From a virus: a stretch of DNA of 30,424 nucleotides. Below the pieces are notes generated by a model that saw only the letters and a program-made list of their open reading frames with translations, had not been told where the DNA came from and ran no database searches. A program made the position numbers and the translations under genes. Location of the stretch: the IMG/VR virus record IMGVR_UViG_3300021090_000083, positions 1-30,424 of that record. The stretch is one strand, 5' to 3'. Positions 564 through 29,204 of this stretch are shown one piece after another (positions within the stretch are counted from its first letter, which is position 1; the number at the start of each line of letters is the position of its first letter).

Positions 564-749
564 ATGTTAGTGCTATCTAGAAGACCCGGTGAACGACTTG
601 TTATCAACGAGGATTTAATCATTACCCTTGTAAGCGTTAAGGGCGCTCGGGTACGAATAGGCATAGAAGGGGACTTTAAAAAATACAAAATACTTCGTGA
701 GGAACTTTTATTAAATAAAAAGGGAAAAAATGAGCCGAAAATTTATTAA
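564..749 (+). CDS. csrA: CsrA-family post-transcriptional regulator, phage-encoded
   Basis: This 61-residue protein matches bacterial CsrA along its whole length: it begins MLVLSRRPGE, contains VKGARVRIGI in the central strands and keeps the LREEL segment. R45 corresponds to the RNA-contacting R44 of E. coli CsrA, shifted by one residue through an insertion near N15. L4, R6 and the GE of the first turn are also kept. CsrA acts as a homodimer that binds GGA motifs in mRNA leaders and blocks or stabilises translation. A strong purine-rich ribosome site (AAGGAAAGGG) precedes the ATG. The last 20 bases overlap the next gene, so the two are translationally linked. Accessory CsrA copies are known on mobile elements of Legionella. 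Its targets here are unknown; candidates are the phage's own leaders or host messages. Confidence 0.93.
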   Translation: MLVLSRRPGERLVINEDLIITLVSVKGARVRIGIEGDFKKYKILREELLLNKKGKNEPKIY

Positions 750-1014
750 GAAACCTTTAGAGATAGAGGCTTTTAAAGTTGGTGATGAGCCGCCTCAATG
801 GTACAAAGATGAAATAGACAAACCAATTGAAGAAAGAAAGATGAAATCTGTTGCCTATGGTGTTATTGAAATTAAAACACTTGAGGGCGTCATGACTGCT
901 AATTTTGGTGATTACATAATCAAGGGAATCAAAGGTGAACTCTATCCATGCAAGCCAGATATCTTTGAGGCAAGCTATGATGAGGTTTTTTCGCCTTCCC
1001 CTGGTGAAGCGTAA
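730..1014 (+). CDS. Small conserved phage protein of unknown function
   Basis: A 94-residue protein starting MSRKFIKKPLEIEAFKVG and ending with the segment GDYIIKGIKGELYPCKPDIF followed by EASYDEV. This N-terminal K-KP-x-x-IEA pattern plus a C-terminal GDYII-G-x-KGE-x-YPCKPDIFE motif is common in small phage proteins of many unrelated phages. No function is established that I know of. It starts 20 bases inside csrA with GGGAAAAA as ribosome site, so it is probably expressed with the regulator. The following 279 bases lack a convincing gene. Confidence 0.8.
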   Translation: MSRKFIKKPLEIEAFKVGDEPPQWYKDEIDKPIEERKMKSVAYGVIEIKTLEGVMTANFGDYIIKGIKGELYPCKPDIFEASYDEVFSPSPGEA

Positions 1015-1046: not shown

Positions 1047-1267
1047 TGAGGGCAAGCGGTGCAAATCCGCACGGGGAAGTGGTGCAAATCCACAAGAGAG
1101 CATACAAACGACCAGGACACCTGAATGCAATTGCCCTCACCAACAAGTGAAGGCAAAGTCTATCAAGACTCCGTGTTGGATAGCACCTTCGAAGGTGATA
1201 GACTTTGTTTAGCGCAAGGGTTCCCAAAAGCCCTGAACACCGTTAGCCCCGCGGGCGCAACTGGGGC
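1047..1267 (+). ncRNA. Candidate structured non-coding RNA
   Basis: The region between two genes folds into several strong helices. TGAGGGCAA (1047-1055) pairs perfectly with TTGCCCTCA (1131-1139) and encloses two T-loop-like hairpins (GCGG/CCGC at 1056-1070, GTGG/CCAC at 1079-1093). CAAAGTCTATC (1154-1164) pairs perfectly with GATAGACTTTG (1197-1207) and encloses the hairpin CACCT-TCGA-AGGTG. GCCCC (1246-1250) pairs with GGGGC (1263-1267). GC content is higher than in the flanks. No U-run terminator follows, so it may be a leader or processed segment of a longer transcript. Frames through this region have no ribosome sites and look like chance. The strand is inferred from its neighbours. I cannot match it to a known RNA family with confidence. 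Confidence 0.65.
1050..1095 (+). repeat. Tandem 23-nt RNA motif with a covarying base pair
   Basis: Two adjacent units, 1050-1072 and 1073-1095, match at 19 of 23 positions, both containing the core GGTGCAAATCC. Each forms a 4-bp stem closing the 7-nt loop TGCAAAT, which resembles a tRNA T-loop. Two of the four differences are the paired change C-G to T-A in the stem (1057/1069 versus 1080/1092), so pairing is kept. That is evidence for selection on RNA structure. Confidence 0.8.
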
Positions 1268-1293: not shown

Positions 1294-1479
1294 ATGACCG
1301 TTGATAAAAAAGAGAAGCTCGAAAAGTTTAAGTGCAATCCCCATTCGTTCTTGGTGACTGGCTGGATGATTAAAGGCGGTGCAAATCGCGCTACTACAAT
1401 GCGCTGTACTCAGTGCTTAATGCCAGTCTCCGTTGAGCAATTAGAGAGTCAAGAATGGAAAGACAGCCAGGGAATTTAA
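1294..1479 (+). CDS. Small putative zinc-ribbon protein
   Basis: A 61-residue protein with C14-x2-H17 and C38-x2-C41, spaced as in a small zinc ribbon. No other domain is visible and I do not recognise the family. AAGGCG lies 7 bases before the ATG. It follows the structured RNA region by 26 bases, so the RNA could be its leader. Its stop codon directly abuts the next start. Confidence 0.6.
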   Translation: MTVDKKEKLEKFKCNPHSFLVTGWMIKGGANRATTMRCTQCLMPVSVEQLESQEWKDSQGI

Positions 1480-4250: not shown

Positions 4251-4259
4251 AGGGATACC

Positions 4260-5090
4260 ATGCACTATAACGATCAAGGTACAAAGACCCCAGACGCTAT
4301 ACCCGTTGAGCCTATTGACCCAACCAACAATATGTCTAATCAAGTGCCTGGAAACTATCCAAATGAGATAGCGCCTGTGTCTGAATCTCCATCTAGTCCA
4401 CAATCGGCGTCTGAAACACCTACCGATGAGGTTGTTCCTGAAGTTAATAAAGAACCTGAAGCGCCAGACTGGTTTATGAAAGATAAATTTAAATCCATTG
4501 ATGACCAGGCCAAATCGTATAAAGAATTGTCAACTAAAATGGGTAAGTACTGGGGAACACCTCAAGAAGGCTATAAGACTGAAGGCATGCAAGGCGTTGA
4601 AGATTCAGATCCCCTTATCGCAAGCTTAACGCCAGCGCTTAAAGAGATGGGTATTTCTCAAGAGGGCTTTACCCATCTTGTGAGTCAGTACATGGAAGCT
4701 AATACCCAGATGATGAAGAGCATGGAAGAGGAGTTGAAAAAGACCTTAACCACGACAGACGCTCATACCTATCAAGCGATTACAAAGTGGATGGATGATT
4801 CATTAACGCCCGAAGAGTCCGCCATGATTAAAAACAATTGGTTAATGACTGCTGATGACTTTAAGCTCTTTAATCAACTTCGTTTGATGGCAGCCCCCAC
4901 TACTAATGTGCCTAGCGGTATGTCTAATCCTGTGATGTTTGAATCCTCAAAAGAAGTGGAGAATGACAAAATTAAATATCGCAAAGAACTCAAAGCGAAA
5001 AGCCGTGTTGAAGATAAGAACTATGAGAATCAACTGGCAGGGCGCTATCGAGATGCCGTTGCTAGAGAGCTTAGAAACAAAGGGCGTTAG
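4260..5090 (+). CDS. Capsid assembly scaffold protein, T7 gp9-like
   Basis: A 276-residue protein (T7 gp9 is 307). The first 65 residues are disordered, rich in Pro, Ser, Thr and Glu. Then comes the scaffold signature PDWFMKDKFKSIDDQAKSY with KELSTKMGKYWGTPQEGY, central acidic helices, and a very basic helical C-terminus (residues about 230-276). Scaffolds of this type guide procapsid assembly through a basic C-terminal region that contacts the coat. Position directly upstream of the capsid gene fits. The capsid gene follows after 177 bases that hold a promoter and two hairpins. Confidence 0.87.
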   Translation: MHYNDQGTKTPDAIPVEPIDPTNNMSNQVPGNYPNEIAPVSESPSSPQSASETPTDEVVPEVNKEPEAPDWFMKDKFKSIDDQAKSYKELSTKMGKYWGTPQEGYKTEGMQGVEDSDPLIASLTPALKEMGISQEGFTHLVSQYMEANTQMMKSMEEELKKTLTTTDAHTYQAITKWMDDSLTPEESAMIKNNWLMTADDFKLFNQLRLMAAPTTNVPSGMSNPVMFESSKEVENDKIKYRKELKAKSRVEDKNYENQLAGRYRDAVARELRNKGR

Positions 5091-5094
5091 GCTA

Positions 5095-5122
5095 TTGATT
5101 CCCTTTAAGTTAATGTTATACT
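5095..5122 (+). promoter_or_regulatory. Candidate capsid-gene promoter with extended -10
   Basis: TTGATT (5095-5100), 16-nt spacer, TATACT (5117-5122) preceded by TG-N (extended -10). It would start a transcript near 5129 with an approximately 140-nt leader before the capsid ATG, giving the most abundant virion protein its own promoter inside the structural operon. Confidence 0.6.
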
Positions 5123-5159
5123 GAATGCAATTTACACAAGCCCGAACTAGATTGGATAC

Positions 5160-5246
5160 CTTTGAAACGGTGACAATTTGTAACCGTTTCAAAGCCTGAT
5201 TGATGATTTGGACACCTTGAATGTAAACAAAAGTCACTTTTGTTTA
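5160..5246 (+). promoter_or_regulatory. Hairpin-rich leader of the capsid message
   Basis: Two perfect inverted repeats lie between scaffold and capsid genes. CTTTGAAACGGT (5160-5171) pairs with ACCGTTTCAAAG (5183-5194), 12 bp with an 11-nt loop. TAAACAAAAG (5224-5233) pairs with CTTTTGTTTA (5237-5246), 10 bp with a 3-nt loop. Neither is followed by a U-run, so they look like processing or stability elements rather than terminators. GGA triplets at 5154, 5210 and 5256 (the last in the ribosome site) could be bound by CsrA. Confidence 0.7.
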
Positions 5247-5267
5247 ATAACCAACGGAGTCTAAATC

Positions 5268-6137
5268 ATGTCATTAGCCTTATCGCAAATTGAGATTCAA
5301 CAATTCTTATCAGACGCTCACGCTGAATTCCAATCAGAAGGTTTCCTCTTACAAACAGCCGTTAGAACCAAGACAGGGACTAAGGGCTCCCAGGTTCACT
5401 TCCCAGTTTTCGGTGAAGGCATGGCGAACCAGAAAGCACCGCAGGATGATATCACCCCGATGAACATCACCAACAGGGATGCAATCGCTGTGATTGAAGA
5501 TTGGTATGCATCTGAATACGCTGACCGTTCCTTTCAAAATAAACTAGCCGTTAACGCCGTTGAAGAATACTCAAAGCTTTGTGCTTGGGCAATCGGAAGA
5601 CGGGCTGACCAAATTACAATTGATACGGTTGCTGCTGCTACGTACTCGACTACGCCAACAAGCACGCAAGGGGCTGATGTTGTCGCAGGAACAACAGGCT
5701 TTGACTTTGCTAAATTGCGAGAAGGCCACCGCTGGTTGCGCCAACGTTCAGCGAACATGGGTAAGCGTACTGTTATCATCGATGCGATAGCCGAAGAACA
5801 ATTGCTTGATGCCTTCCAGTTAACCAACAGCCTTTATGTTAATTCTAAAATTCTTGATAACGACGGCCTAAACGGCATGACCTTTCTGGGTATGAATTTT
5901 ATTGTTATTCCTCAAATGAACGAGGGCGGATTGCCTGTAACCTCAGGCGGTACGGTCGGTAATGCGTTTTTCATTAATGAGATGGCCGTAGGGTATGCCC
6001 AGTCTGAACGCTTAGGCGGAGATATCTCTTGGGAAAACATCAAGACGTCTTACTTAATTAACATGTGGATGGAAGCTGGAGCCGTGGTTGTTGATCCAAA
6101 AGGCTTGGTTCGAGTTCAATATTTATTAGCGCCTTAA
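5268..6137 (+). CDS. Major capsid protein, HK97-fold
   Basis: A 289-residue protein with features of the compact podoviral capsid family: an N-terminal helix, the extended-loop region QVHFPVFGEGMANQKAP, the spine-helix segment DRSFQNKLAVNAVEEYSKLC with AWAIGRRADQ, and a C-terminal domain with SERLGGDISWENIKTSYLIN and WMEAGAVVVDPKGLV. It is shorter than T7 gp10A (345). There is no N-terminal protease-processed delta domain, consistent with a separate scaffold gene. The ribosome site is ACGGAG, 9 bases from the ATG. A dedicated promoter and hairpin leader precede it. Confidence 0.92.
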   Translation: MSLALSQIEIQQFLSDAHAEFQSEGFLLQTAVRTKTGTKGSQVHFPVFGEGMANQKAPQDDITPMNITNRDAIAVIEDWYASEYADRSFQNKLAVNAVEEYSKLCAWAIGRRADQITIDTVAAATYSTTPTSTQGADVVAGTTGFDFAKLREGHRWLRQRSANMGKRTVIIDAIAEEQLLDAFQLTNSLYVNSKILDNDGLNGMTFLGMNFIVIPQMNEGGLPVTSGGTVGNAFFINEMAVGYAQSERLGGDISWENIKTSYLINMWMEAGAVVVDPKGLVRVQYLLAP

Positions 6138-27907: not shown

Positions 27908-28196
27908 TGTTTAAAATAAGTAGGTTGAATAAAGACTTTAATTATTATTTTAAGGCATAATTGCGAAAAGGTTCGGCTGGGTACATCAATGTTCCCAGCA
28001 CGGGAACTTTAAACATATCGAATGAATACTTAAGCCGACAAGCACTTATTCATTCTTAATTGATCGGATGTCTTGTTTTGTCAAATAAGGACAAGACTTC
28101 CATACAACGTCACTACATAGTCACGGCAGAATACCAAGCATAGCAAACAGTGCAACATGACTATTGTCACTACTACATGACTGAGGAAATTATACC
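27908..28196 (+). promoter_or_regulatory. Structured leader or control region before the replication gene
   Basis: This 289-base stretch has no gene but several inverted repeats: GCTGGG (27976-27981) with CCCAGC (27994-27999); GAATGAATA (28020-28028) with TATTCATTC (28047-28055); GTCTTGT (28070-28076) with ACAAGAC (28091-28097). TCGGCT (27973-27978) can also pair with AGCCGA (28033-28038), which would disrupt the first hairpin. A near-exact 18-base repeat, GAATACCAAGCA-(T/G)-AGCAA, lies at 28129 and 28199, the second copy spanning the start of the replication gene. GTCACTA occurs at 28109 and 28166. Binding sites or a folded leader controlling replication are plausible. Confidence 0.5.
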
Positions 28197-29204
28197 ATGA
28201 ATACCAAGCAGAGCAACACTTCATCACAATACATTGAAAAATTCTCTGGTGACTTCTCAAAAGAAGATCACGGTTGTTCCATCCTAATTAATCAAACTAT
28301 GAATAACATCCGTGACTTAGATGCTGCTGGAATGTACAGCTATCTTTCTTGCCGTCCTAAAACATGGAAAATAAATGTCAAACACCTAATGGCTCACTTC
28401 AAGTGCGGCAAAGATAAAATCTATTCTACCTTAACAAAGCTTATTGAATTGGGGTTGCTTACCGTACTTCACAAGCGCGAGAAGGGAAAATTCACCAAGC
28501 CATTCTACATGCTCCATCTCCAGCAACCACAAGGCTTTTCACCGTGTCCGGAAAAACCGGACACGGTTCAACCGGATACGGAAAAACCGGATACATATAA
28601 AACAAAGAAGTTAGAAAACAAAGAAAGTAAAACAACAACAGAGACAAAGCCCATCCCTAATAAGTCTGGTTATTGTTATAAACACGCAAATAATAATCAG
28701 ACAAAACAAAAACAACCAACAACAGTTCATAATTCTCTCTCCGAGCAACAAACCGTTGTTGTTTTTGAATCGTCTAATCAAGACAACTATGTTTTGAATA
28801 AAATCAAAGATACCCCGAAAGAAAATAGCCCTGATTGCGACCAGGTTCGATTTTTGAAAGAGATTAAATTTCACATTGAGAAACATTACCCCGATAACTT
28901 CAATAAAGGGATAAATGCTGTCGCCAAGCTTTTAAAACACTATCGCTGGTCAACCCCGTCAGGTTACGTTGACCTCGATAGTGAAAATGACAAGAAAGAG
29001 GCCAGTGAACGCGAGCATCAGGCGAGAATGAAATCACAAGAGGAATTAGGCGAGAGGAAAAGAAAAGAGCTTCAAGAGGCTTCAAAGCGCTCCAGAAACG
29101 AAAAGCAAAAACGAGGAAATGTGACACAGCCTTTTTCAAGCGCGATTAAACAAATGTATGAAATAATTGGTGTGAAATTGGAATGTCGCGGTTTGACTAT
29201 ATAG
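28197..29204 (+). CDS. Replication initiator, lambda O-type organisation
   Basis: A 335-residue protein. Residues about 25-105 form a winged helix-turn-helix domain (LDAAGMYSYLSCRPKTWKIN, then CGKDKIYSTLTKLIELGLLT), as in phage and plasmid replication initiators. A low-complexity linker (110-210) contains EKPDTVQPDTEKPDT (119-133), encoded by the iteron array. The C-terminal part has a conserved-looking module (HIEKHYPDNFNKGINAVAKL, LKHYRWSTPSGYVDLD) and a highly charged helix. In lambda, O binds iterons within its own gene and recruits helicase through P. No P or DnaC-like loader is visible here, so host factors or a gene outside the window would be needed. GAGGAAA is 9 bases before the ATG. 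The 3' end overlaps the integrase gene by 8 bases, convergent. Confidence 0.75.
   Translation: MNTKQSNTSSQYIEKFSGDFSKEDHGCSILINQTMNNIRDLDAAGMYSYLSCRPKTWKINVKHLMAHFKCGKDKIYSTLTKLIELGLLTVLHKREKGKFTKPFYMLHLQQPQGFSPCPEKPDTVQPDTEKPDTYKTKKLENKESKTTTETKPIPNKSGYCYKHANNNQTKQKQPTTVHNSLSEQQTVVVFESSNQDNYVLNKIKDTPKENSPDCDQVRFLKEIKFHIEKHYPDNFNKGINAVAKLLKHYRWSTPSGYVDLDSENDKKEASEREHQARMKSQEELGERKRKELQEASKRSRNEKQKRGNVTQPFSSAIKQMYEIIGVKLECRGLTI
28542..28660. other. Putative replication origin inside the initiator gene
   Basis: Three adjacent 15-bp iterons, GG-NNN-AACCGGAYAC, lie at 28550-28564, 28565-28579 and 28580-28594. An inverted half-site at 28542-28551 makes a perfect 10-bp dyad, CCGTGTCCGG / CCGGACACGG (28542-28551, 28557-28566). 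Directly after the iterons is a purine-rich, AT-rich segment (28595-28634 is about 20% GC). Iterons followed by an AT-rich unwinding region inside the initiator gene is the lambda ori design. Confidence 0.75.

Follow-up and report, generated by a model that had tools for sequence, protein, structure and literature searches.

A probable orphan structured RNA near a csrA-like gene in a viral record, and a tRNA-like phage RNA family that appears not to have been described

The window analysed in this study, which is the whole 30,424-base viral record of an uncultured phage, encodes a T7-like head-tail connector (Pfam Head-tail_con), a major head protein, an internal virion protein, RecT, and a tyrosine integrase, together with a terminase match. 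The region of interest, positions 1047-1267, has p730 immediately on its 5′ side, preceded by a csrA-like gene, and on its 3′ side p1294, with which a cassette kept in relatives begins (p1294, p1480, p1645, p2055, and portal; Table 1). No intrinsic terminator was identified on the + strand within the region.

Table 1. Features of the locus and some of the R1 members; positions are those of the window unless a record is named.
Feature	Position	Strand	Evidence or remark
csrA-like gene, 61 aa	564..749	+	Pfam CsrA, E 6.9e-15; phrog_9500
p730, 94-aa phage protein of phrog_419 type, function unknown	730..1014	+	phrog_419, E 5.4e-28
Cloverleaf-like domain, 93 nt (9-bp closing helix and three hairpins)	1047..1139	+	z -2.06
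T-loop hairpin 1, GCGG-UGCAAAU-CCGC	1056..1070	+	
T-loop hairpin 2, GUGG-UGCAAAU-CCAC	1079..1093	+	pairing probability 0.85 in fold of 1015-1300
Hairpin 3, GCAU 1100-1103 / AUGC 1125-1128 around CAGG-ACA-CCUG 1113-1123	1100..1128	+	
AGGA, possible Shine-Dalgarno of ORF 1125, within hairpin 3	1114..1117	+	7 nt before ATG
ORF 1125-1280, possible small gene, 51 aa	1125..1280	+	start codon within hairpin 3
12-bp perfect helix enclosing inner CCUUCGAAGG hairpin	1154..1207	+	z -3.52
3′ part of the region	1208..1267	+	structure not beyond chance, z +0.27
p1294, 61 aa, first gene of the cassette	1294..1479	+	tblastn to ten relatives
R1 member	L090:4429-4559		
R1 member	L090:5372-5515		
R1 member	L102:3705-3826		
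R1 member	L081:6034-6168		
R1 member	L168:4524-4646	-	
R1 member	L172:2837-2982		
R1 member	L185:8904-9029		
R1 member	L190:5703-5828		
R1 member	L190:5607-5690		

A preliminary description of the region reported two perfect helices, and both were recovered here. The 9-bp long-range helix pairs perfectly between TGAGGGCAA (1047-1055) and TTGCCCTCA (1131-1139); the second, described as 11 bp long, is equally perfect but comprises 12 bp (CAAAGTCTATCA at 1154-1165 and TGATAGACTTTG at 1196-1207). Perfect 12-bp inverted repeats with arms no more than 40 nt apart occur twice in the window, where 0.05 would be expected, and none of 3000 dinucleotide shuffles of the region produced a 12-bp inverted repeat. 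The other such repeat of the window, at 5153-5194, is also perfect, with at least 12 bp (CUUUGAAACGGU...ACCGUUUCAAAG), and lies between a gene ending at 5090 and one starting at 5268.

A 22-nt tandem repeat (1050-1071 and 1073-1094) that had been overlooked in the preliminary description yields two hairpins with the same 7-nt loop, GGUGCAAAUCC (UGCAAAU), closed by a G-C pair in the form of a tRNA T-loop. The repeat copies differ at three sites, two of which make up a compensating stem change from C-G in hairpin 1 to U-A in hairpin 2; this change supports the T-loop hairpins internally, not phylogenetically. Pairs of T-loop hairpins no more than 60 nt apart were found in none of 100 shuffled windows. 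With a third hairpin and the 9-bp helix that closes them, the two T-loop hairpins form a predicted cloverleaf-like domain with an energy of -28.6 kcal/mol, compared with -29.0 kcal/mol for the minimum-energy fold. The CAGG/CCUG stem of hairpin 3 reaches a probability of about 0.9 when 1015-1150 is folded in isolation, and its outer stem GCAU/AUGC is present in the minimum-energy structure and absent from the centroid.

The fold of the whole region is only mildly better than that of shuffled sequences (z -2.19 and -2.48) and has an energy ordinary for its G+C content in this window (-1.45 sd). When 1015-1300 is folded, competing pairings win: the 9-bp and 12-bp helices each have a probability of about 0.03, and both are missing from the global minimum-energy fold. 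For 1015-1150 folded alone, a setting that might mirror folding during transcription, the probability of the 9-bp helix is near 1.0 and that of T-loop hairpin 1 only about 0.2. The interpretation given in the preliminary description is partly supported: the 12-bp helix, the twin T-loops, and the compensating change speak for a structured RNA. That description also proposed two alternative folds, in which CTATC (1160-1164) pairs with GATAG at either 1179-1183 or 1197-1201. All three motifs are present at these positions; the 5-bp pairing with 1179-1183 has a probability of about 0, so a two-state CTATC/GATAG switch is unsupported.

Elsewhere in the window, a non-coding stretch at 27930-28115 (+), upstream of the gene at 28197, is strongly structured, more so than 1047-1267 (z -5.20; 0 of 200 shuffles). 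A homologue (L209; E 5e-8) was detected in the record of locus L016, in which GGCUGGG...CCCAGCACGGGAAC is kept and the pair GAAUGAAUA/UAUUCAUUC is replaced by GAAUCAUUA/UAAUGAUUC through compensating changes. In both sequences the pairings GCUGGG/CCCAGC and GUUCCC/GGGAAC are mutually exclusive. No Rfam family was found for this leader.

The placement of the region outside known RNA families is supported by Rfam 15 scans, which gave no match at the gathering score or at E up to 10; the latter search was applied to the short stretch, and four weak hits in one scan are attributed to chance. ARAGORN finds no tRNA, and RF00005 gives no match. The GGGAA...GGUGCAAAUCC hairpin and the CCAGG-x-CCUG element resemble the P5/L5 hairpin and B12 box of the cobalamin riboswitch; this candidate was rejected, with no covariance-model match for RF00174, RF01689, or RF01482 across the whole record at E up to 10. 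An FMN riboswitch, another resemblance considered, would have surfaced in the all-family Rfam scans and did not.

The preliminary description had suggested searching related phages for the region, and this search recovered no homologue in IMG/VR, GTDB contigs, or phage records, sets from which those closest to the window may be missing. The element is absent from the 15 portal-related phages examined (15 IMG/VR loci with portal identity of 57-89%), and the homologue of p1294, located in ten of these, has other sequence directly upstream in every case. Scans of IMG/VR with a DNA pattern of the tandem hairpins revealed no relative, their matches being mostly coding repeats and tRNA-region sequences, and the same pattern had zero matches in GTDB contigs. 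Likewise, no relative emerged from a portal protein search of GTDB contigs, from blastn against 50,697 phage records, or from searches of loci and records linked to p730, to csrA, or to R1. Such variable content just upstream of p1294, with the element in none of the relatives, would fit an insertion, either newly gained or in decay, or a neutral spacer, with no function at present, as would the mild overall fold energy. The 12-bp helix and twin T-loops, however, exceed chance and the stem difference between the repeat copies is compensating, and we regard this explanation as improbable.

T-loop hairpins were also sought beside homologues of p730, which led to an array in L090 and from there to an RNA family, here termed R1. 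The array is a non-coding stretch of about 1.3 kb (L090 ~4255-5520) directly after the p730 homologue; it contains five T-arms and is made up of helix-closed domains (for example GGGAUAGCCC...GGGCUAUCC and GGGAAAUCAAG...CUUGAUUUCCC) that are joined by AAAGAAUUAU linkers. Relaxing the Rfam search to E 1 gave no match to it. One of its modules is common to L102 and L081. A pattern derived from this shared module retrieved 26 stretches in IMG/VR, where the number due to chance was roughly estimated at one; L179 resembles such a chance hit. From 5′ to 3′, R1 consists of an acceptor strand GGCAAUCG, a 5′ arm GCGUG-GACAGUGA-CACGC, a variable domain, a T-arm GCCGG-UGCAAUU-CCGGC, and the acceptor strand CGAUUGCC. 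The acceptor helix is 8 bp long with the T-arm stacked on it, and the middle domain is hypervariable in both length and sequence.

In an alignment of 22 R1 sequences (A1), 97.3% of cells at the 17 named pairs can pair, and nine of these pairs have changed on both sides. The covariation score is 0.357; shuffles give 0.137, and sliding the partners gives no more than 0.13. The covariance model matches all 25 source records searched, with up to four copies in each, scores of 55-107 bits for most members, and divergent members down to 84 nt; several copies adjoin tRNA genes. R1 has no Rfam match and no convincing blastn match in INPHARED, and is absent from all 15 portal-related records. It apparently represents an undescribed phage RNA family, and the evidence for R1, like that for the leader at 27930-28115, is stronger than the evidence for the element at 1047-1267.

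Related T-arm hairpins were observed in other phages. In Klebsiella phage KpLz-2_45 (MN871446.1), about 1.1 kb of unannotated sequence between tRNA-Ser and KpLz245_2020 (L194:940-2050) adjoins the tRNA island and has no Rfam match; one of its T-arm modules is also found in L090 (10 phage records, about 84% over 49 nt). We consider this stretch a candidate large structured phage RNA. A similar module is located at L178:1845-1925. In a tRNA-cluster phage (L035:7834-7889, - strand; also L039 and L056), a TTCAATT/AATTGAA helix spaced by 89 nt surrounds two T-arm-like hairpins with loops TGCAATT and TGCAAAT and overlaps an ARAGORN tRNA-Pro call.

The element at 1047-1267 is not a member of R1. A full-window search with the R1 model returned nothing there, and an unfiltered search of 500-2500 aligned only the T-arm stretch (7.6 bits). 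The 8-bp acceptor helix of R1, with its 3′ strand right after the T-arm, is absent, as is the 5′ arm, for which the model aligns nothing. These differences bear on whether the element might be a stand-alone tRNA-like small RNA, processed from the operon transcript and akin to the tRNA-like RNAs beside p730 homologues, which could be a substrate of, or a decoy for, host enzymes recognising T-arms. Its two exact T-loop hairpins (GGUGCAAAUCC) are close to the R1 T-arm (GGUGCAAUUCC), the R1 model places its T-arm on hairpin 1, and R1 members or related arrays adjoin p730 homologues in L090, L102, and L081. Yet neither T-arm of the element is abutted by an acceptor helix, the topology is wrong, with two T-arms on the 5′ side of the closing helix, and neither R1 nor ARAGORN identifies it; we judge a stand-alone tRNA-like RNA unlikely. 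Two further resemblances were set aside. A 7-bp acceptor around hairpin 1 (CTTCCCC 993-999 / GGGGAAG 1073-1079), which can be drawn by eye, was rejected, with CTTCCCC lying within the p730 gene and no support from model R1, and a 14-nt match to the L090 array (TGAAGGCAAAGTCT) was post hoc, with E 3.7 in the searched set, and was not used as evidence.

The preliminary description found no convincing gene in the region. No homologue of ORF 1125-1280 was identified in IMG/VR, INPHARED, PHROGs, or Pfam, in agreement with that view, which is nevertheless insecure because an AGGA lies 7 nt before the ATG and the codon score is borderline: at 0.048 it is just above the 95th percentile for spurious ORFs, which is 0.02, and among real gene segments it ranks between the 5th and 25th percentiles. 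ORF 1125-1280 might be a real small gene of the operon, packed closely ahead of p1294, with the apparent structure partly incidental or merely its leader. Codons would leave the repeat and hairpins 5′ of 1125 unexplained, however, and a 12-bp inverted repeat would be unexpected within 51 codons. With homologues lacking in the four databases, we hold this reading to be unlikely.

We conclude that the region is probably a real, orphan structured RNA. The most plausible reading, with a probability of roughly 35%, is a structured operon element that is specific to this lineage and acts in cis. Such an element would lie in untranslated sequence separating p730 from p1294. Its core would be the cloverleaf with closing helix, tandem T-loop hairpins, and third hairpin, and the 12-bp stem would follow as a separate unit. 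A cis mode of action appears most likely because both the AGGA and the ATG of ORF 1125 sit inside hairpin 3, and codons 3-5 share bases with the 3′ strand of the closing helix. The position of the start within hairpin 3 is what suggests a translational leader, although this start site, 0.53 unpaired, falls in the range of the other genes of the phage (0.25-0.73) and is not paired more than theirs: the folded domain would mask the start site, unfolding or a bound factor would open it, and translation of ORF 1125 may be coupled to that of p1294. The adjacent CsrA is one candidate factor, although CsrA control is speculative because GGA triplets are present at about the number expected by chance (three in 221 nt). 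The sequence elements, their excess over chance, the compensating change between the two hairpins, and the lack of relatives in the sets searched are direct observations; that the region is transcribed, folds in the cell, masks a start site, is bound by a factor, or has any function is inferred.

If 1047-1267 folds as drawn, it would be an operon RNA of a phage whose tandem arrangement of T-loops has no counterpart in Rfam. R1 combines strong covariation with a tRNA-like acceptor and T-arm and a hypervariable middle, and is both absent from Rfam and unmatched by blastn in INPHARED; its discovery suggests that too little has been described of the non-coding phage sequence next to tRNA genes and small accessory genes. 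More broadly, and with considerable doubt, the element may be an outlying member of a wide, so far unrecognised set of phage RNAs whose common core is the tRNA-like T-arm hairpin, in tandem, permuted, or variable-domain arrangements. Phages would carry them where operons meet or next to tRNA genes, and might use them to engage or divert host enzymes or defences that recognise the T-arms and tails of tRNAs.

GOLLD and ROOL are large structured phage RNAs that are often found near tRNA islands (PMC12286853). The element is far shorter than these, lies away from tRNAs, and has no Rfam match, whereas it resembles them in being structured, non-coding, phage-encoded, and of unknown function. With a phage csrA next to it, the element also brings to mind CsrB/RsmZ-type CsrA sponge RNAs; a sponge was nonetheless rejected, since its GGA motifs are too few, none lies in a clear hairpin loop, and Rfam gives no match. 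Compared with R1 and tRNA T-arms, those of the element are in tandem and carry no stacked acceptor helix, but all have in common a G-C-closed 7-nt T-loop, UGCAAWU, which in the element falls within the loop definition of the R1 T-arm (UGCAAUU or a near variant).
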